In this document: positions 18,261 to 38,461 of the stretch, in pieces | Numbering within the stretch: position 1 is the first letter of the stretch | Layout of the letters: each line of letters opens with the position of its first letter | Assembly (NCBI GenBank): GCA_958009055.1 | Contig: OY253649.1 | Span: 744,001 to 808,000, forward strand | Direction of reading: 5' to 3' | From: Choricystis sp. odSpoLacu1 | Lineage: Eukaryota > Chlorophyta > Trebouxiophyceae | DNA length: 64,000 nucleotides | Notes under the pieces: generated by a model | Database searches by the model: none | The model's input: the letters and a program-made list of their open reading frames with translations, nothing else | Told to the model about the DNA's origin: nothing | Program-made: the position numbers and the translations under genes

Positions 18261-20788
18261 TTGATTTGAGAGCATTGCGGCTACGCCTGGTGACGCCGCC
18301 AGCGCCACCCGTTTCCCCGGGCAGGCGTGGCGGACCACGCATTGGGTTGGTACAACGCGCGCCATAGGCGCCGGCGCACTCGGCCATGTCCCTCCCTTCC
18401 CGCCACCGCGCACGCCCCCCTTTGGTGGGCCAAACATTCAGGACCGCGCCTGGGGGAGGAGAGGGAAGAGGGGCGCGGCGGGGCTCGTCGCTCCGACATT
18501 TCGCCAAAGCTCGCAAACGTTCACGAGCGAACAGGCGAACTTTCGCGCCCCCGCAAGCCCTACCCCGCCCGGCGGTTGGGCACTCGCCTGCCGCCCTGTG
18601 TATTTTCTCCACCAGCGCCGGCAGTCACCATGTCCCTTTCATTGGCTGAGCATGCGACCTGTCGGGCGGGCGTCCGAGCCCGGGCGGCCAGGCAACTGCC
18701 CCGTTTTTTCATTCCCCGCAACACCCACCCAACACACACTCACCCTCCCTCCTCCGTAAACCCACCCGTTCCATCAGTCTGATGACTGGCGAAACGGAAC
18801 CTGGCTGTGGAAGCAGACCACGGCCAACTGAAGCAACGCCACCGCAACGCTCGGCGTTGCCGCGGGCGCGTCCCCACAACGCTCGATAAAAAACTGGATT
18901 GTCGCTGCCGCCGGGCGCGCGTTTTCCAAGAGTGACGCCCATTTGGAAGGTCGCTGCTGTGGCCAGAGCCCACTCCAACAACACCCTGTCGGGCACGCTC
19001 CTAGAGCTCGCCCTCCAGCCATACCAACTGACCCTCGAGTTGCGCACCGACTCTGCCGTGTCCCTGGCCTGGAGGCTGCCAGGCCGCAGGCGCGGCCGCG
19101 CCGCCACAAAGGCTGCCGCCCTCGACTTGGACGATGTGCTGACGCCCAGCAGCGGCGCGCCGTGCGTGGCCGCGGGCGAGGCGTGCACGTCGACGGCGCT
19201 GGGCGCGTCCGCGCCTGCGCCGGGTGAGGAGGCGGCCGTCGTCGCTGGCCTGCCTGCGGGGGCCAACGTGACGTGCTACGCAGTACCGTACACCAAGCTG
19301 AGACCAGAGTGCTCTGCGGGCCTGTACGTCGCCCTGCTGCCGCCCACGCCGCCCACGCCGCCAACGCCGACCCCCGTGAAGATGCTGAGCTCGAAGAGAG
19401 CCTTTTTCAACAGAACGGCGCTGGGCTGGTACGTAGTGCGCCAGGTCAACAATGCAGGCCCTGGTCGCTGCCTCCACAGAGCTCAGAACTCCACCCTGAT
19501 CGACATGGTGTGCGTTCTTGGCGAGGCCGGGTGCAACGCGCCGCCGCAGGGCATAGCGACGACGCTGGATCCGTCGACGAGCTTGGTGACGGTGTATGAT
19601 CTAACCCCAGAAACATGCTACACCTGCTACGCTCGGGCGACCGGGCCAGACGGCAACCACGTCTGCTCTGCCGGTGTGCGCGCGTTCACGGGGGTGGAGC
19701 CTCCGACAGAATTGCGAGCTGCCGTCACCAGCAACTCCAGTCTGACGCTATCGTGGTCGCTGGCTGATCAGGGCGTACCTGCCTCCACCTATGGCGGCGT
19801 GTGCGTGGCTCAGGGGTTGGCGTGCGACGCTCCATCCGAAGGGGCGTCCCCGCCGCCCGCGCTCAACGCGACGTCTGCGCCCGTGACGGGGCTGCAGCCC
19901 GGCACGCCCTACACTTGCTACGCACAGGCGTTCAACGTGTTGTCGGGCGCGGCACCCTTCTGCTCGACAGGCGTGGACGTGACCGTCATGGCGGCCCCGG
20001 GCGTGCCGACTATCGTGCGGTTGGTGAACGAGACGACGACCAGCGTGACCCTCGCATGGACGCCATCGCCCGTGGGTGTGGCCGCCCATTGCGTTGAGCG
20101 TCATTTGCGTGCAGGCCGGCCTTGGCTGTGCCTCGCCCGGTCAGGGGACGCCGCCCGAGCCCACGCTGAACGCGACCACGGGAACTGTTGTCGATCTGAC
20201 CCCAGAAACAAATGTGACTTGCTATGCATTCGGTATCAACGCTATCGGCAGGTCGTGCTCGACCGGGCTGCCGGTCACAACGTGGCAGCTACCTGACCCA
20301 CCCACGGGCATGCGCGCATTATCCGGCACCACTGCCACAGTGCCATCAGGACGCTGCCGGCTCAGCCAGGCGTGCCGGCCGCGGGCGTGGGCGCGCTGTG
20401 CGTGGCGGCGGGCGGCACGTGCACCGACCTCCCGCTCGGCACCGTGCTGCCGCCCAGTCCCAGCAACACCGTTGCCGTCATCGGGAGACTGACCCCAGAA
20501 ACGCCGTACACGTGCTATTCGTATGCTACGAACCCTGTGGGCACGGCGTGCTCGATTGGGCTGCAGGTTTTTACGCTGATCGCACCTAGCCCGCCCACCG
20601 GAATGCGTGTACTGGACGCCAACAATACAGCGGTGTCTCTCGCTTGGACGTTGCCGGCTCAGCCAGGTGTGCCGACCGCGGTCATGGTCCCGCGGTGCAG
20701 GGCAGGCGTGCCGGGCGAGCGGGGTGCAGCAAAGGCACACTGCTCCATCAGCATACGGCAGGCGGAGGCATTGTTCTGCAAACAATGA
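18101..20788 (+). pseudogene. Fibronectin-III-like repeat protein, decayed
   Basis: A signal-peptide exon (18101-18154, MQNATFALVALAATAAAQ) with a GTGAGA donor heads the unit. From about 18906 to 20700 run at least five ~100-residue modules that look like fibronectin-III domains: each has a Leu/Ala-rich SLAW-type strand, a CVAxGxxC block and a closing LTPETxYTCYA strand before the next PPTxMR. Cysteine spacing is regular, for example VCVAQGLACDAP and CYAQAFNVLSG. The frame shifts once near 20085 (module four) and again near 20360 (module five). Module six breaks off near 20700 with a stop at 20786. In this copy the first acceptor leads straight to a stop (ACA TCA CGT TGA). No intron explains the shifts. 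It probably encoded a secreted adhesive or wall protein. It could alternatively be a former N-terminal part of the downstream GH9-GT2 gene. Confidence 0.65.
18261..18905. other. 645-base segment present only in copy 1 of the repeat
   Basis: This block separates ACATCACG from TGCCGCCGGGCG, which are adjacent in the second copy at 28694/28695. It is therefore either an insertion in copy 1 or a deletion in copy 2. No terminal inverted repeat or target-site duplication is obvious, and no open frame in it is convincing. A reverse-strand frame ending near 18774 (SVAVALLQLAVVCFHSQVPF) may be a gene fragment, but I cannot place it. Confidence 0.5.
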
Positions 20789-21037: not shown

Positions 21038-24000
21038 ATGGGGCTTGGCCGCGGTCGCTCCCGTGGGGCGCGGTTTTGCACCCTTGTGTGGTCCTGCAAT
21101 GCACTGTCTGCGGCAGTCGCTCAGCACGCGGCGCCACTTCCCGCTCCGCTGTCGTCGACTCAGCGATCGGACGTCATGAGCGCGATGTTTGCACGCCGAG
21201 AACTGGACCCCATCCAGGCGCCAACCGCCAATGCGACCGACGCGGCGCTGGCCGCGGCGGTCGGTACCGCTGCGCTCAGCGGCGTTCCCGGCTTTGAACG
21301 CGTGCAATGCGGCGGATCCCAGTCCTCCAGCACCCTCAACGGCACCGCATTTGGTGTGGTCAACCTGACGACAGGGTTTGGCGCGGCGGGCGGCAGCAGT
21401 GTGGGCCCCTGGCCCACAGACCGCCAGTGCCCCGCATCCGCGCCGACTTGCGGCCAGGCGCCAGTGCCGCCCAACTGGCCGCCCGCCACCAAGTCCACAG
21501 ACTGTTGGCTGTGCGGGGGTGGCGACGTGGCGGCCGTCTACCGTCAACAAGGCGATGCCACCCTGCAGCCTGGTACGCGGTGCCTGACGACGTCGCGAGC
21601 GCGCGCGGCGGGGGGCTGGGTGCGCTCGGTCGACGCAGTGGACACCGGTGGCACGCCCCCCTTTGACGGCCTATCGGATGAACGGCATTCAGGCGTCGAC
21701 TGGCGCTGTGTGGGGGACGCGGCTCACTGGTTTTATTGGGGGCAGGCGTCGGGCCCTCTGTCGGCCGACGCGCGAGCGCGCGTCGGTGAGTGGCGCGGCG
21801 ACACGCTCATCAAAGACCGCGCCCCCAACGGCGCCCCCCTAGTCGGCTCCTTCCTGGACGCGGCCGACGTGTCCAAGTTTGTGTTCCCACTGGCCTACAC
21901 GCTGTCCATGCTGAGCTATGGCGGCTTTGTGGGCGCCGCGCGAGACGCGTATGAGGTGAGTTGTGGGAATGTTTTTTCTTTCGCGTCGGCTGGCCTTTGC
22001 ATCATCCTTTTCTCACTCACTTTGTACCCCAAACTACACACTCACATTGACACTAGGTCGATACCGTGCGCCGCAACGATCTGCGCGCCATCATCAACCA
22101 CGGCGCCCGGTTTGTACTGGCGGCCAGGTATGCGCCTGGCTCCATTGTGGCCTACACCACTGCCCCCGGCAACCTGAACGCGTCGCACGCCGGGTTTTGG
22201 GGGCGGGCGGAGGATATCACCGTTCCGTCCGACGTGGGTTATTTAACCCCCGGCAAACCGTCGGCCGACATCGCGGGTGCGATGGCCGCCGCCCTGGCGG
22301 GGGCTGCCTACGTCAACGTGAATGATGACAATCCAACCGATGATGAGCTGAAAGCGGCGGCCAGTTATGTGGCAGTGGCGGCGGATTTGTTTGAGCAGGT
22401 GAGAGAAGAGAAGGGAGAGGGGAGTTGGGGGCGTCTGAACGACACAACCACACCTTCACACGAACCACTGATCCTCCTTCCAGGGCACAAAATACCCTGG
22501 CCTCCATTCCACCCACGTCGACAACACGCTGCCCCTGTTCTACAACTCATCCTCATACCACGACGACATGGCCCTGGCCGCCATCTGGCTGGCCGTCATG
22601 GTGGGCGGCGCCGACTGGTCGCGCATCCTGCGGTCGGGGTACGGCAGTTTGATCCAGGCGGGCGGTCACAACGCGTCTGAAGCGGCCGACATTGCGGCAC
22701 GCGCCACCACGCTAGCGCTGGAGGCTGGGACACCGCCGCCGCGGTCCGCCCTGGAGTACTGGAATGCGGCCACGGGGCACCTTGACTCTTTTTATTCATC
22801 TCGTCAAGCGCAAAACAATCTGTTGAGCTGGGACAACGTGGGAACGTTGGCGGGGGCGCTGGCGGCGCGCGTGGCGCTCGCGTCAGAGGTGGCCGACCTG
22901 CGCAAATCAGCTCGCGCCAACTTTACGAGCAAAGCCGACATGGTGGACCATTTCACCACGGTGCGAATGGAGTGTGTGTGTGTGTGTGTGTGTGCGTTTG
23001 GTGTTGCGTGTGGGTGTGTTTGGACTGTGCCTCTCGCTCTTCTGATCTCACCTCTCTTTTTTTATTCTCACTCTCTTTATTCTCAGCCAGCCCAACTCGC
23101 CGTACTGTCATGGATGGCCACACCAAAATACGTGCCTGCCGACGTTATCGGCCCTCTGCCCGGCTTTGGCACGGGCGTCAAGTACATTGGCGCCGGCAAC
23201 CTGGCCATCGCGTATGAAAACGCATGGGGGTCGACCCGGCTGACTGCCGCGGCCACCGCTCTCGCCCTGGAGCTGGCCGACCTGGCGGCCGCCATGGACA
23301 AGTACAGCCGACGGACGGCTTGGCGGTGCTGGGCGAGGTCCCAAGCGCGCGCAATCGTCGGCCGCGTGCCGGGCTTCACCCAACCATTCACCGAAGTCGT
23401 GTCGACCGAAGAATCGGCCAACCTCAAAGCGACGGCGATGGCGCCGCTGGTGGACTCCCCCGCCCCCACGGCGGCGTGGCGCTCGTTTGTGGCTGGTGTC
23501 GGCCCGTCCCCACCACGCTTCGTATCGCACCGGGGCGCGTCGTGCCCCACCAACCGGTCCCTGCCCTGCGACTGCTCTGCCTATGTGTCGCCCTCCCCCA
23601 ACCCCACCACCATGTTCGGAGCGCTCGTCGGGGGCCCCAACTCGGCCAAGCCCACCGCCAAAGGGTTTCACGGCCACCTGGATGACCGCACCTCCTACGA
23701 AACCAATGAACCCGCCCTCGACTACAACGCGGGTTGGCTGATCACGACCATGGCGCTGGCGGGGTCCCAGATCGACCAGTCTGCCCTGTCCCCCGACACG
23801 CTATCCACGCACACTCGCGAGTTCCCGGTATCGCACGCATCCGCCGCCGCAGACGCAGACGTATGGGACGCGTGCATCGGCTCGGGGGTTGGCTGGTTCC
23901 CGGTGCTGCCGTCTGCGTTTGTGGCCGATGTGCGCAACGCGTCGGAGCGCAGCATCGCCCGGTATCGCTTCCACCCCGCCGGTACCGGCCGCCTGCGCAC

Positions 24001-27000
24001 GGCTGGATGGCAACCGGCCGGCCTGCTGATGGCGCTGACGACGGCGGGCGTGGCGGCGGCGTACTTTTTGGCCAACTCCGTCGCGGCGGCACGGGGCCGA
24101 GGCCAGTACCAGCTGTGGTACGAGGGCGCTGTGCGCGTGGCTGCCGCCCGGGACGACGCCCGCATGCTGGCCGCGTTGCGTTGTTTGGCCGAGAAAACGG
24201 GAGGCCGCGGCGGCGCCACGCCTCGCCACACTCGCTCCCTCCGCTTCAGCCCTGAGTGCACCGTGCCCGATGGCTCTGGCTTCACCGCCCTGCTTGCGGG
24301 CGCGGCGGGGGCTACGCGGGATGGCGGTGGCTCTGTCGAATGGCTTCTCGCGGCAGGCGCCGACCCACGCGCTGTCAAAAAAGACGGCTGGAACGACACG
24401 GCGCTCCACTACGCGGCCGCCACCGGGTCGGCTCGCGCTGCATGCGCCCTGGTCGCTGCCGCCCCCGGCCTGGCCACCGCCACCAACTTTGCGGGGTGCA
24501 CCCCTGCCGACGTCGCCCGCGACTGCGGCCACGCCGTGCTCGCCGACTGGCTGAACGCGGCGGCCGCAGCCACCACCGATGCAGACGCGCAGATGCCGCC
24601 CCCGCCGTCTGTGGTGGCGTTGTTGACAGCGGCCACTGCCGCTGCTGCGGCGATGCCGCTGACAGAGGCGGAGTTGGCGGACGCCGCCGCCTTTGCGCAC
24701 CGTGGCTACGACGGATGGGGGTCGCACGGCGTCACGCCGGCGCGCGGCGTCACGCGCTTCCGCGTCGCCGCGGTCGCCGCGTCGGCCGCGTGGCTCGGGT
24801 ACCTGCTCTGGCGCGCGCTGCGCACGCTGGAAGAATCGTCGTCCGCTAAGTTTGTGTACAGCGTCGTGTTTTGGTTGACGGAAGGTGGGGTTTTGGTGTG
24901 TGGTGTGGGTGGTTGCGGGTTGGAAGCGGTGAGCTTGGTTGTCCTTCCAACCCATCCTCCCCACCTACTCCCTTCACACAGCCTTTGGCTTCATCATGTG
25001 GTTCCCCCTGGTCATAGCCCTCTGGCGTCAAGTCGAGCGCAAGCCGCGCAACCTGCACAGAATGCTGCTGGCGCCGTCCGCCGCGGACGACGCGAGCATA
25101 GAAGACACCGGACTGGCCCTGGAGACTGACGCATCGCGCACCAACAGTGCTTCCAACCTCGCCACTGTGCCCGGTGGAGCACGTGCATCCGGGTCGGCCG
25201 TGTCGCTGACGTCAACATTGGGCTCGACCACGCTCTACCCAACGGCCGCCATCATCATCGTCTGCTACTCGGAGCCGGTGGACGTCATCCAGCCCACCGT
25301 GCTGGCCGCCCTGATGCAGGACTACCCGCCCGACCGCGTGCGCGTGTTGGTTTCGTGCGACGATCCGCGCCGCACCGACGTGCCGGCCATGGTGGCCATG
25401 CTGCAGCGCATGCGGACGACCACTGCGCGCGCGCTGCCGCGCCTTAACTGCCTCGTCCGCACCAAAGTGGCGGGCGTCACCCACCACGCCAAAGCCGGCA
25501 ACATCAATTCCGCCCTGTTTGCGTCGGGCGTGGCGGGCGACTACATCGTTGTCCTTGACTGCGACATGGTCACCGACCCGCGCTTTTTGGCGCGCACGCT
25601 GGGTCATTTCCTGGAGCGCGACCCGAGCGACGGCGGCAGTAGCACCGCGCGGCCAGCGTCGCCGCGGCCGATCAGCGTGCCTCCGGCTGCGTCGCCCGCC
25701 CCGGACGGGCGGCCGCAGGGCAGCGTGCTGTACTCCGCGTCCCTCGCCGCCGGCAGGCCGCCGCCGAAGCGGGCCGCGTCGCCCGCCCCGGGAGGGCCGC
25801 CGGCCGCCCTCAAGCGTCTGTCCACCACATCCGCCGTGTCTGACTGGACGTCCGCGTCCGCGCTCAAGTGGCGCCGCAAGCAGAGGGCCGGCTTCCTGCA
25901 GACGCCTCAATCCTTTGTCAACGTGGACGCTGCTGACGCGCTGGCCCACAGGTCGCGCCTGTTTTATGGACCCCTGCAGACGGGGCGCGACGGCGCAGAT
26001 GCCGTCTGCTGCTGCGGCACGGGGTGCGTTTTCGATCGAGCCGCGTTGATCAGCATTGGTGGCCAAGCCTATGGTTCTATTACGGAGGATAATAAAACCA
26101 GCATGGCTCTGGCGGCGGCCGGATTTTCATCCATGTACCTCGACGAAAAACTGCAGGCCGGCCTCGCCCCCGACGACGTGCCTGGCGTGTTTGAGCAGCG
26201 CCTGCGCTGGGCGACGGGCGCGCTCCAGATCTGGTGGCGCAGTAATCCGCTGAGCCGCCCTGGCATGACGACCACACAGCGGCTTCTGTACTACGACACG
26301 TGTGCCTACCCGCTGCTAGGGGCGTCCACGCTCGTGCTGTGCGCGGTGCCGATTGTTTATTTAGTGAGTGTGCGATTGATTTTGTGGTGATTTTTCGAGC
26401 GTGTGGAACGCTTTGGCTGGTGGTAGGGAGGCGTGTTTGGTGGGTGGGGCAGCGGAGAGGGGGGGCGCGGTACTTTCACCTTTTTCTTTCCCTCACTTTT
26501 CTTCCCTCCCTTCCCTTGCCTCCAGCTCTCTGGTGTCACTCCCTTCAGCGTGAACAACATGTGGGAACTGTTGCTGGCGTTTGGCCTGTTCTACATTCTG
26601 CAGCGGGCCGCCCTGTGGATTGCCCACCTGTCGATCGACGGCGGCGACGGCGGCGTCGGCGTGGCTGGCGGGGAAATGCTACGCACCACGCAAGTCGGCT
26701 TCTGGCTGGCCCCCTGCAACGTGCGCGCCCTGTTTGCTGTGCTATGGACTCAGACCAAGCTGGCCGTCACGTGCGGCCGCGACGGCGACCTGGGCTTCAA
26801 AGTCACCAGGAAGCAGGCCTCCGGCGTGCACGCCGCGTCGCGGCCGCCCCAGTCGTCCGACTCGGACATCGAGCTGGGCACCGTGTCGGTGGCGTCGTCC
26901 GCGTCGTTTGAGCCGTCGCACAAACCGAGATCGCCCAAACCCAAACGCTGGACGCACGCCATGCTGATGCCAGCGCTGGTGGCGGCCGCACGGCGCGCGC

Positions 27001-27593
27001 GCCAGCACACGTCGTCGTTCACAGACGCGTTGCCGTACGTGTGGATGCACATTCTGTATTACCTGGCCCTCGTGGCTGCTGTCGGCGTCACCATCTGGCG
27101 CGCGGTGACGGGCACCATGGACGCGTGGGCGGGCGCCGTCACTGCAGCCGCCATGGGGTGGGCCCTGCTGATCGCGGCCAGCATGTGGCCGCCCCTCGAA
27201 CTGCTGGTGCCCGACCTGGGGGTGGCGTCCGCCCTCAAACGGTGCCACGCCGCCCTGTTCCGCGACACGTCGCGCGCCACCAAGGTCGCCGCCAGCTCCA
27301 ACGGGTCCGACCTGGGGTCCCGCCTGGGCGAACGCGATGCCCCTGTCCGTCCCCAGCCCATCGTGCGCCGCTTAGGCGCGTTTTCACCCGCCCTCCGCCG
27401 CCCCTCCATCCTCAATCGCAGCGGCTCCCTGGGCCGCGCCGCCTACTGGCTCGCGCCTTCGGCGCGCTCGCGCGTCGTGTGGTTGATCGACTTGTGGGTC
27501 GTGGGCGCACTGGTGGCGGCCGCCGTCATCGACGTCAACCGCGTCGACGTACTGCTCACGTCGGCCGGGTTTAAGTTTGGGGGCAGCAACTAG
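21038..27593 (+). CDS. GH9 endoglucanase - ankyrin - GT2 cellulose-synthase-type fusion
   Basis: Six exons (21038-21955, 22057-22398, 22484-22960, 23087-24884, 24982-26363, 26526-27593) join in frame to 1994 residues. The N-terminus has a hydrophobic stretch (RFCTLVWSCNALSAAVAQ), a signal or anchor. The GH9 part (about 60-860) shows FLDAADVSKFVFPLAYTLSM with the catalytic Asp pair at 274-277 (DAAD for the usual DAGD), WGRAEDITVPSD, FYNSSSYHDDMALAAIWLA, LLSWDN, SHRGASCP, and ETNEPALDYNAGW with the catalytic Glu at 787. A membrane helix (~890-912) leads to an ankyrin segment (~920-1070: WNDTALHYAAATGSARAA, GCTPADVARDCGHAVLADWL). Two helices (~1137-1193) precede the GT2 domain: VVLDCDMV (D1371, D1373), SITEDNKT (D1548) and FEQRLRWATG (QxxRW 1584-1588). 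More helices follow. Topology puts GH9 outside and ankyrin plus GT2 in the cytosol. The likely product is a beta-1,4-glucan made and trimmed by one protein. A (GT)n run lies in intron 3. Confidence 0.88.
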
Positions 27594-35905: not shown

Positions 35906-36708
35906 TCACTCGTCCGGAAACAACGCCGACTTCTTCTTGTTGACCACCACAAAGAAGTGCTTCTTCTCAAACCCAGCGTCCTTGTAGGTGACCAGCACGA
36001 GGTCGGCCGCGCGGGCCGCGACGTCGCCCTGCACCTCGATCTGTTCCCCCCCTTCCGGCGTCTTGGTGACGGACGCGCCCGACGCAAACTTTTTGCCCAT
36101 CAGTTTGGCGGCTTCCGCCAGCTTGACGCCAAAGAGGTCGAGGCCTAGGGGAGGGAGGGTGGGTGGATTGAGGTTGGCCGTTTGTGCCTTGTCTTCTTGT
36201 GCCGGCTTTCCCCCTCCTCTCTTCCTCACACTCACCCGACACTGTCGTCACGCTCTTCTTCTTGCCCCGCGTCGCCACCTCCATGACGACGGCCGGCTCC
36301 TTGCCCTTCTTCTTGGACTTTTTCTCGGGCTTGGCCGGCGCTGCCGACGCCGCCGCGTCATCGCTCACGGCCAGCTTGGCCACGCCCTCCGCCGCCGCGT
36401 CGGCCGAGGCGGCTGCAGGCGCGTCACCAGACGGCTCGGGAGCGGTGGCATCGCCGCCGTCTTGTTGGGCTTTCCAGCTGTGTGGGGAGGGGAGGCGGGG
36501 GGTGAGTTTGGTGTGTCGCAAAAAACATCCTCCTCCAGCCACACGCACACACACACACACCACACACGCACCGCTTGTACTCGTCGCAGTTGGTGGGCAG
36601 GAACTCGTTGAACTCGGCGGGCACACCCGTCACCGAATCGTACGCGACGACGAGGGGGGGGGGTGCAACGCGGTCGGCCGGGGGGGTATCCACGTCGGTT
36701 GCGGCCAT
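35906..36708 (-). CDS. DENR: Density-regulated protein DENR (SUI1 domain)
   Basis: Exons 36572-36708, 36236-36477 and 35906-36144 give 205 residues. The N-terminal part includes VTGVPAEFNEFLPTNCDEYK, with the conserved Cys and Tyr-Lys context of DENR. A charged, Ala-rich linker follows. The C-terminal SUI1 fold starts VMEVATRGKKKSVTTVSGLD and runs through GKKFASGASVTKTPEGGEQI, IEVQGDVAARAADLV and ends FVVVNKKKSALFPDE. DENR with MCT1 recycles 40S subunits and helps reinitiation after short upstream frames. The first donor is GTGCGT inside a CA-repeat stretch; the next is GTGAGT. The gene is divergent from the GT61 gene. Confidence 0.92.
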
Positions 36709-36955
36709 GGTTGGAAGGAGAGATGCTGCGATCGTGGAGTGGGGGTGGCGATGGGGGGCAAGTGCGAGCGGGAGAGGGAGAACGGCGGAGAAAAACGGGA
36801 TTGGGTGTCTGCAGAGAAAAAAAAAAAAACGCGGCCGACGCGCCTTTCTCTCGCTCCCTCTCGGTCACCGCGCCCGAGAAACGGACGTTCCACACACGAC
36901 GCACACACGCACCAGCGCGCCCCATACAATCCACCAAAACCGAAATGACACCTCC

Positions 36956-38461
36956 ATGACCGCGGCACAGCGGCCCCCGCGCCACCAGCGCGCGCTCACA
37001 GCCGCGCTCGCTGTCGCGCTCGCAGCCGCGGCAGCCCAGCTGTGGGCGTCCGCCCCGCCTCGGACACACGCTTTGTCGCTGCCACGCGGTCCATTTCCAT
37101 GTGGCTGCGTGTGGCGGTCGAAGGGACGGGCGGTGGAGTTTGCGGTGCGGCGCGGATGGTCCGCCACACCGCCGCCCGCCTGCACCGCCGCCGCCACGAC
37201 GCAGCCGTGGGGTGGAGCAGGACGCGTCGGCGGAATCAACCTGCCTCCACCACCGCCCACCAGCATCGCGTGTGGGTGGGCGGCCTGCACCCTCACACAC
37301 GCGTGGCTCTCCGGCGGCGGCCCCACCCTGCACTCCCTCCACCCGTCCGGCTGGCGTCATGCCACGCACACCACCCAGCTCACCCGCAACACCAGGCTGG
37401 CCCCGTTAGCGTTGGGCGACGCGGCCGCGTTCGCGGGGGCGGCGGCGCCAAGGGTGGCGGGCGGGACGACTCTTGTTGTCGACTTCACATTTTTCAAAAA
37501 ACACGGCGCCATCGCGCACTGGGCCGAGGTGGGCGCCCAAATTGTGGCGTCGCTGGCGGAGTCTGAGGGTGAGGGTGGCGGAGGCGCCTCCTCTTCAATC
37601 GCGCGGGTTGTCCTTTTACACGCGCCGCGCGCCGCGCTGACGCCCTGGGTGCGCACCGCGCTTGCGGCCGCCCTGAACACGACGACCCACCTGCCCCCCA
37701 TCATTGTGCAGGTGGATGGTGGGTCGGCCGAGGGCCAGGTCGGTGCGCTGCTGGAAGGCGATGACAGCGCGGCCGCCTCTGGCTGGCTCCTGCTCGAACG
37801 CGCCATCGTGCCACGCGACGTTTTCACGGGGGGCAGGCGCACCTTTCACACGCCAGCCGCAGCGGCCACGTGGCGGGCCGCGTTTCACGAGGCGGCGGGG
37901 GTGGCGCTGCCGCCGCCCGGTCGGCACGGCAACCACATGCCCACCATCCTGCTGCTGCGCAAGTCGGCCGATAGGCGCATCCTTAATGAAGCCGCCCTGG
38001 TGGAGGCGTTGACGACGGTGGGCATCGTGACTCAAGCCGAGTGGACGAGCGAGACGGGGGTCGCCAGCCAGCTGGCGGAGATCGCAGCGGCCGACATCCT
38101 GGTCTCCACCCACACGTCCGCCTTGGCGGCCGTGCAATTGGTGCGGCCTGGCACCACCATCATTGAGCTCATCCCACGCAACTGGGCGTGGGGCGGGCTG
38201 GACACCAGTTTTAGGGATGCTGCCGCCGCGCGCGGCGGCGTTTTGCACGCGGCGTGGCGTGCGCGCGCGCGCGCCGAGACTGTGCCCGAGACCCCGCGCG
38301 ACGGCGCCCGCTTTGGCCACTGGACGCCGTCCCAGTGCGTCACGGAAGCCTGCGTGCACGCGGCCGCGGCGGCGGACGTGGTTGTGGATGTGGGCGCCGT
38401 TTGCGCGATGGTCATCAACGCAGCCCGCGGTGACCCGCTGCCGCCGTGGCCGGCGCCTTAG
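36956..38461 (+). CDS. GT61-family glycosyltransferase (type II membrane protein)
   Basis: A single exon encodes 501 residues. A short basic N-terminus and one hydrophobic segment (ALTAALAVALAAAAAQLWA, about 14-32) make it a Golgi type II protein. The C-terminal half carries the GT61/DUF563 signature: HMPTILLLRKSADRRILNEA (the R-R-I-x-N motif), AAADILVSTHTSALAAVQLV and RPGTTIIELIPRNWAWGG. GT61 enzymes transfer xylose, arabinose or GlcNAc to glycans or proteins; the donor here is unknown. The frame is set by ATG 36956; an ATG 11 bases upstream is out of frame. TGTAA lies about 30 bases past the stop. With the GH9-GT2 gene it adds to the wall-glycan content of the window. Confidence 0.85.
   Translation: MTAAQRPPRHQRALTAALAVALAAAAAQLWASAPPRTHALSLPRGPFPCGCVWRSKGRAVEFAVRRGWSATPPPACTAAATTQPWGGAGRVGGINLPPPPPTSIACGWAACTLTHAWLSGGGPTLHSLHPSGWRHATHTTQLTRNTRLAPLALGDAAAFAGAAAPRVAGGTTLVVDFTFFKKHGAIAHWAEVGAQIVASLAESEGEGGGGASSSIARVVLLHAPRAALTPWVRTALAAALNTTTHLPPIIVQVDGGSAEGQVGALLEGDDSAAASGWLLLERAIVPRDVFTGGRRTFHTPAAAATWRAAFHEAAGVALPPPGRHGNHMPTILLLRKSADRRILNEAALVEALTTVGIVTQAEWTSETGVASQLAEIAAADILVSTHTSALAAVQLVRPGTTIIELIPRNWAWGGLDTSFRDAAAARGGVLHAAWRARARAETVPETPRDGARFGHWTPSQCVTEACVHAAAAADVVVDVGAVCAMVINAARGDPLPPWPAP

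Follow-up and report, generated by a model that had tools for sequence, protein, structure and literature searches.

Cutting and building of beta-1,4-glucan are usually the work of separate proteins, as in the bacterial pair BcsA and BcsZ and the plant pair CesA and KORRIGAN. A locus of the green alga Choricystis sp. odSpoLacu1 raises the question of whether both activities can reside in one polypeptide. It lies within a stretch of 64,000 nucleotides (nt) (contig OY253649.1 of assembly GCA_958009055.1, positions 744,001 to 808,000 of the forward strand; the whole stretch is hereafter called the window), for which a preliminary description proposed a six-exon gene of about 1994 residues fusing a GH9 cellulase, ankyrin repeats and a GT2 glucan synthase. 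Indeed, the six exons, at 21038-27593 on the plus strand, join across five GT..AG introns into exactly 1994 amino acids (aa) without an internal stop. From this gene structure it is secure that GH9, ankyrin and GT2 are encoded by one gene as one chain, because exon 4 joins the C-terminal part of GH9 to the ankyrins and because a second copy on contig C7, a third protein (P0001) and a family of ankyrin-GT2 (Ank-GT2) proteins repeat the linkage. The product predicted for this trebouxiophyte green alga is probably a single polytopic membrane enzyme, ordered as GH9, helix, ankyrin repeats, GT2 and membrane bundle.

Both the presence of the three domains in one chain, which Pfam, C7 and P0001 confirm, and the positions given earlier for the catalytic motifs (DAAD, E787, D1371/D1373, TED and QRLRW) held up. 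GH9 (PF00759) matches the window protein in two stretches with 162.6 bits (cut-off 27.7), and D274, D277 and E787 line up with the D, D and E of four reference GH9 proteins. Cellulose_synt (PF03552) reaches 85.3 bits against a cut-off of 24.7, and four more Pfam GT2 models lie at or slightly over their cut-offs (54.1, 36.6, 23.4 and 21.9 bits, the first being Glyco_tranf_2_3 with a cut-off of 27). The D, DxD, TED and Q..RW set of processive GT2 enzymes is complete and is accompanied by FxVTxK, which we take to be the gating-loop motif of BcsA-type synthases. Among solved structures the GT2 part is nearest to BcsA (127.2 bits), then to CesA (best 62.8). TIGR03030, the model of bacterial BcsA/CelA, was scored on the incomplete P0001 rather than on the window protein, and the result of 192 is below the curated cut-off of 699.1. 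In the ankyrin part Ank_5 (29.3 bits) and Ank_4 (26.7) are over cut-off and Ank_2 (22.3) is under its 27.3.

The C7 copy (C7:4560-11309, on the minus strand, 1999 aa) rules out a chance architecture; it repeats the same domain order. The two proteins are 80.8% identical over 1990 codon pairs and their coding sequences about 82% identical overall, and similarity at the DNA level extends from 21205, 167 bases into the window gene, to 27587, with neither flank alike. Introns 2 to 5 occupy the same sites in both copies, and their lengths (85/179, 126/142, 97/98 and 162/331 nt in window/C7) never differ by a multiple of three; therefore splicing alone keeps the common frame, also at the 24884/24982 junction. 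Intron 1 is absent from C7, so its splice sites are shown directly; either one of these close paralogues gained the intron or the other lost it. The third protein, P0001 (an ENA record of 1114 aa, 79% identical), is missing its N-half and runs from a GH9 part that includes the acid Glu through ankyrins to GT2, with the equivalent of intron 4 read through in frame.

Estimated with YN00, the ratio of nonsynonymous to synonymous substitution rates (dN/dS) between the window gene and C7 comes to 0.156 for the whole and ranges from 0.08 to 0.42 over the nine scorable segments. It is 0.087 in GH9, 0.081 in aa 1481-1660 of GT2 and 0.088 in aa 801-905; aa 1-225 and 1071-1260, which flank the domains, are under weaker constraint. 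By these values the pair is under purifying selection. Two segments gave no YN00 value, namely the ankyrin part (Nei-Gojobori (NG) dN 0.074, dS 0.542) and the identical insert. A tract of 392 nt identical between the copies is probably the result of recent gene conversion.

On which side of the membrane would each domain lie? An arrangement with GH9 outside and both ankyrin and GT2 in the cytosol, as first proposed, is plausible, given where basic residues flank the helix in five relatives and given the homology to BcsA. A segment over the hydropathy threshold precedes the ankyrins in the window protein, in C7 and in seven of the eight relatives scanned, and ankyrins on the inside are favoured because 4 to 6 basic residues cluster on the ankyrin side of this helix in five of the eight (P0061, P0064, P0067, P0069 and P0072). 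Several observations pull the other way. The eighth relative, P0068, is an exception to the helix itself; basic residues flanking helix 890-908 are neutral (2/2 in the window protein, 2/1 in C7), and P0065 (3/3) and P0071 (3/2) show no bias. Neither the window protein nor C7 has an N-terminal segment over the hydropathy threshold, a signal peptide being recognised by eye and better in C7. The first of two helices before GT2 (near 1143-1162) passes the threshold in the relatives only, and an Ala-rich stretch at 1087-1105 passes it in the window copy and not in C7.

Where might such an enzyme have come from? A search with aa 1478-1740 of the window protein found 18 proteins, of which 11 besides P0001 have ankyrin and GT2 Pfam matches and none of these 11 has GH9; the ankyrin part, too, is not unique. 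Seven of the 11 are from green algae by name, and their sources include Micractinium, Chlorella sorokiniana, Scenedesmus, Klebsormidium nitens, Nannochloris and others. The remaining hits were P0063 (GT2, no ankyrin match), P0070 (two GT2 matches), and a Bremerella protein and three others with TPR and GT2. Throughout this transmembrane (TM)-ankyrin-GT2 family TED, Q..RW and FxVTxK are almost invariant.

Three of its members, P0065, P0069 and P0071 (the last with the source name Chlat1, which we take to be Chlorokybus), have a long N-terminal ectodomain before the helix and ankyrins. These ectodomains are one family, 37 to 56% identical, with one E within an (H/Q)EMNG motif and another within IPE(V/T). 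Pfam GH26 is passed by P0065 and P0069 (22.2 and 20.8 bits; cut-off 20.2) and has no match in P0071, and the ectodomain profile finds 22 solved chains (Endoglucanase H, some of them receptor fusions, beta-mannanases, GH26C, YdhT and one computational-design entry), all presumably GH26 enzymes or constructs carrying one. The same scaffold would appear to bear a GH26-like domain in one set of proteins and GH9 in another.

The window gene is also not the only meeting of GH9 and GT2 in this genome. The 17 GH9 matches of the genome fall into seven loci, six of which (window, C7, C12, C1:626-630k, C4:314k and C16) have a GT2 match at most 1.6 kb away on the same strand; at four (C12, C1:626-630k, C4:314k and C16) the order is GT2, then GH9. 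At C1:626-630k both lie within one unbroken reading frame, and C12 yields a stop-free spliced model of 1083 aa; the linkage at C4:314k and C16 consists of adjacency and readable exons, with in-frame stops at C4. At the seventh locus, C4:1140k, no GT2 match lies nearby; its GH9 has the full set of motifs and is preceded, in a different frame, by a signal-like stretch. Among the copies in GT2-GH9 order, L028 (C16:263500-273400) still reads DAGD and the acid Glu, whereas L025, L026 and L027 are without the GH9 catalytic residues; L032 is a free GH9. L027 (C4:310500-320000), which has in-frame stops at two positions that are Tyr in relatives, is perhaps a decaying copy. L033 (C3:1012000-1021900) carries a GT2 of the fusion clade and ends, by eye, in a short stretch like the start of GH9; it has possibly lost its hydrolase. 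Another GT2 match of the genome, L013, lacks the synthase motifs by eye.

The GT2-GH9 order extends well beyond this alga. A GT2 fused to GH9 is reported in Coccomyxa subellipsoidea C-169 in passages of Blanc et al. 2012 (PMC3446292), and a protein search with the C1:626k model listed 56 matches, 37 of them with both Pfam domains, from sources that include Coccomyxa, Myrmecia, Trebouxia, Elliptochloris, Symbiochloris, Botryococcus, Apatococcus, Auxenochlorella, Chlorella and Micractinium (P0024, which counts among the 37, matches the query with 100% identity). Judged from these predicted proteins, the fusion is common in Trebouxiophyceae, and such relatives also point to a host of this class. 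Among the matches listed, the GH9-Ank-GT2 order is confined to the window gene, C7 and P0001, and since the best 7999 and 8000 word-sharing candidates were scored in the GH9-Ank-GT2 and GT2-GH9 searches, the absence of further examples is weak evidence. When 42 GH9 rows from fusions of GT2-GH9 type are aligned, the first catalytic Asp is kept in 0 of 41, the second in 7 of 41 and the acid Glu in 0 of 42, and the window protein and the four references have all three. The rows comprise L025, L026 and 40 proteins taken from the 53 numbered P0004-P0056 (L027 and L028 lie outside the alignment), after exclusion of ten proteins without GH9 and three with a short GH9 C-terminal part (P0009, P0035 and P0044). 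Of the 40, three (P0017, P0019 and P0055) were predicted with GH9 alone, P0045 is blank at the Asp columns and P0024 is partly a read-through prediction of L026. These fusions appear to keep a conserved pseudo-hydrolase on a cellulose-synthase-like protein. No claim is based on the predicted structure of P0018, a GT2-GH9 protein of 1125 aa (predicted local distance difference test score (pLDDT) 81.5, predicted template modelling score (pTM) 0.71).

Did the two orders arise once or twice? The GT2 tree has 42 rows, with 18 of the 53 proteins P0004-P0056, including the GT2-only P0047, P0048, P0051 and P0056; P0072, whose model is without the Q..RW part and gave no match to it, was dropped, and P0063 was grouped as Ank-GT2 despite having no ankyrin match. 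Seven rows of the Ank-GT2 family, of which the four named ones are Scenedesmus, Chlorella and two Micractinium, form one group with the three GH9-Ank-GT2 rows (99/99). A separate clade (100/100) contains L033 and 20 rows of GT2-GH9 type, four of which are GT2-only. L026 clusters with P0009 of Botryococcus (96/88). In the GH9 trees, built with 15 of the 53 proteins, a single clade unites the domains without catalytic residues (90/100, and 100/100 in a second tree from which P0003, a bacterial second GH9 domain, was dropped for its long branch), and the window GH9 stands outside it on a long branch. A separate origin of the GH9-Ank-GT2 and GT2-GH9 fusions is favoured on these trees. The approximately unbiased (AU) tests stop short of proving it: forcing the two GT2 kinds together is 19.7 log units worse with a p-AU of 0.07, which disfavours their union without rejecting it, and forcing the window GH9 together with the clade without catalytic residues gives a p-AU of 0.26, again no rejection. 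We also considered the window gene as a simple permutation of the GT2-GH9 fusion, which is not favoured given the position of its GT2 with Ank-GT2 and of its GH9 outside the clade of dead domains; the AU tests do not reject such a link.

What, then, might the window protein do? The reading we lean towards is that of a processive beta-glucan synthase to which a hydrolase is tethered, editing the chain as it emerges. In the cytosol its BcsA-like GT2 would assemble a beta-1,4-linked glucan and move it through a membrane channel of its own, while GH9 would reach the secretory lumen by means of an N-terminal signal and be held outside by the first helix. There GH9 could cut or trim the emerging chain in cis, relieving tangles, setting length or freeing the synthase, where in other systems a separate KORRIGAN or BcsZ does the chain-cutting work. 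The cytosolic ankyrins may be a docking or regulatory site, because they also occur in relatives without a hydrolase. GH9 would have been added in this lineage to an older TM-ankyrin-GT2 synthase, probably independently of the GT2-GH9 fusion.

It is hardly credible that two adjacent genes were mistakenly joined here. E787, helix 890-908 and the ankyrins all share one frame in exon 4, the joining of ankyrin and GT2 is conserved, including in P0065 (from a source whose name denotes a transcript assembly), and C7 and P0001 show the same linkage; two separate genes were rejected on these grounds. Bacterial promoter and terminator models, which are unsuited to a eukaryote, found no promoter-like site and one terminator-like site (0.6 expected) between 24000 and 25300. 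Alternatively, GH9 could be released by cleavage after translocation, so that the enzymes are made jointly and act apart. Apart from the weaker constraint of aa 1-225 and 1071-1260 nothing points to this, no cleavage site evidence was found and aa 801-905, right after GH9, are constrained, which leaves cleavage improbable.

The editing hydrolase itself can be questioned. The first His of the HHR motif, the substrate-binding motif of GH9, is Ser in the window protein, C7 and P0001 (S-H-R, with the second His and the Arg kept), the branch of the window GH9 is long, at some 2.5 changes per column, and sister fusions retain a GH9 without the catalytic acid, so that cutting is not required for persistence; each of these counts against the proposed role. 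The fused GH9 might thus bind glucan or guide its exit without cutting it, as would be the case in most GT2-GH9 fusions and in the GH6 of tunicate CesA, which is missing its catalytic Asp and is described as likely functionless in passages of PMC10334666. We regard this as rather unlikely for the window gene, in which, as in C7, the three core catalytic residues are intact (the acid also in P0001) and the GH9 segment is strongly constrained. It is somewhat easier to imagine, if still the less probable case, that the product is another beta-glucan, such as mixed-linkage glucan or glucomannan, edited by GH9; this is compatible with the editing enzyme proposed above. The GH26-like ectodomains match solved Endoglucanase H best, a module we take to be a lichenase, and mannanases second. 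Moreover, BcsA-like green-algal enzymes of CslO/CslP type lie near a fungal mixed-linkage synthase according to passages of a preprint (PMC9915684). GH9 and the similarity to BcsA fit cellulose equally well.

The preliminary description had further supposed a distinct and possibly undescribed design. As to the pairing of a synthase with a cellulase, this does not stand, the GT2-GH9 pair having been reported already (PMC3446292, in the passages seen). Within the open-licence literature searched (titles, starts of abstracts and passages), what is new is the GH9-TM-ankyrin-GT2 order with GH9 catalytic residues intact: we recognised there no report of GH9-ankyrin-GT2 proteins or of ankyrin cellulose synthases, and no mention of a class-wide loss of GH9 catalytic residues or of GH26-like ectodomains. 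The BcsA-like CslN, CslP and CslO families of green algae are described in the preprint PMC9915684, whose available passages do not mention ankyrin, and ankyrin is likewise absent from the main text of PMC10762512.

Features of the GH9-ankyrin-GT2 gene, in window coordinates (aa, residues of the 1994-aa protein)
Feature	Position	Strand	Residues and remarks
Exon 1	21038..21955	+	aa 1-306; N-region containing Cys, with a possible signal peptide (by eye); GH9 begins, DAAD included; start of C7 aligns
Intron 1	21956-22056	+	absent from C7 copy
Exon 2	22057..22398	+	aa 307-420; GH9; fused to exon 1 without a break in C7
Exon 3	22484..22960	+	aa 421-579; GH9
Exon 4	23087..24884	+	aa 580-1178; in one unbroken frame: C-terminal part of GH9 (E787 included), membrane helix, ankyrins, start of pre-GT2 membrane region
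Intron 4	24885..24981	+	97 nt (98 nt in C7); only junction joining ankyrin to GT2
Exon 5	24982..26363	+	aa 1179-1639; rest of pre-GT2 membrane region, GT2 catalytic domain
Exon 6	26526..27593	+	aa 1640-1994 and stop; membrane helices, FxVTxK motif
GH9 domain	21722..23749 (introns included)	+	about aa 229-800; PF00759; matches solved GH9 1ks8
GH9 DAAD (equivalent of DAGD)	21857..21868	+	D274, D277; by alignment and motif position
GH9 catalytic acid	23708..23710	+	E787; by alignment and motif position
Membrane helix between GH9 and ankyrin	24017..24073	+	aa 890-908; hydropathy 1.75, over threshold
Ankyrin repeats	24329..24559	+	about aa 994-1070; PF13857 and PF13637 over cut-off
GT2 region	25227..26588 (intron 5 included)	+	about aa 1261-1660; D1305/D1306, HAKAGN, D1371/D1373, TED 1546-1548, QRLRW 1584-1588
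Tract identical to C7 copy	25587..25979	+	392 nt; aa 1381-1511
FKVTRK	26796..26813	+	aa 1730-1735; fits FxVTxK

Just upstream of the gene lies an open frame with a fibronectin type III domain (18890-20296), and 9 kb downstream one with a GT61 domain (36506-38461), another possible wall-sugar enzyme.

Why cellulose synthesis needs a cellulase such as KORRIGAN or BcsZ is a long-standing question, hard to test since the enzymes are separate. A built-in hydrolase holds the two activities at a one-to-one ratio and, were the topology as proposed, would also fix its position at the channel exit. The loci described here form a natural series for the role of cutting, with the window gene and C7 live-looking, L028 live-looking in the other order, L025, L026 and L027 without catalytic residues and L032 a free GH9. 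On balance we think that green algae joined a hydrolase to a beta-glucan synthase repeatedly: GT2-GH9, GH9-ankyrin-GT2 and GH26-like-ankyrin-GT2 would be separate events on at least two synthase scaffolds, the ankyrin scaffold would take exchangeable outer hydrolases, and the hydrolase would be live in some lines and a dead but conserved exit module in others. If so, they offer natural active and inactive pairs with which to ask why synthases need a cellulase.

Compared with known systems, the same pair of activities is expected of the window protein as of BcsA/BcsZ and CesA/KORRIGAN. BcsA differs in its PilZ domain, which is not among the nine Pfam families found in the window protein (E up to 0.001); nor do its Pfam matches include a family for the N-terminal zinc finger of plant CesA. 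The TM-ankyrin-GT2 proteins share with the window gene the ankyrins before GT2, the GT2 clade and the helix before the ankyrins, and differ in having GH9 in 0 of 11 and, in three, a GH26-like ectodomain. The GT2-GH9 fusions, present at four loci of the same genome, similarly combine a cellulose-synthase-like GT2 with GH9 in one protein, but they have GT2 first, no ankyrin, a GT2 that probably belongs to another clade and no catalytic acid in any of the 42 rows (L028 keeps it). Tunicate CesA likewise holds synthase and hydrolase in one chain, although its hydrolase is a C-terminal GH6 missing the catalytic Asp (PMC10334666). The class-wide GH9 without catalytic residues mirrors this GH6, which suggests by analogy that a hydrolase fold that does not cut may be useful at the exit.

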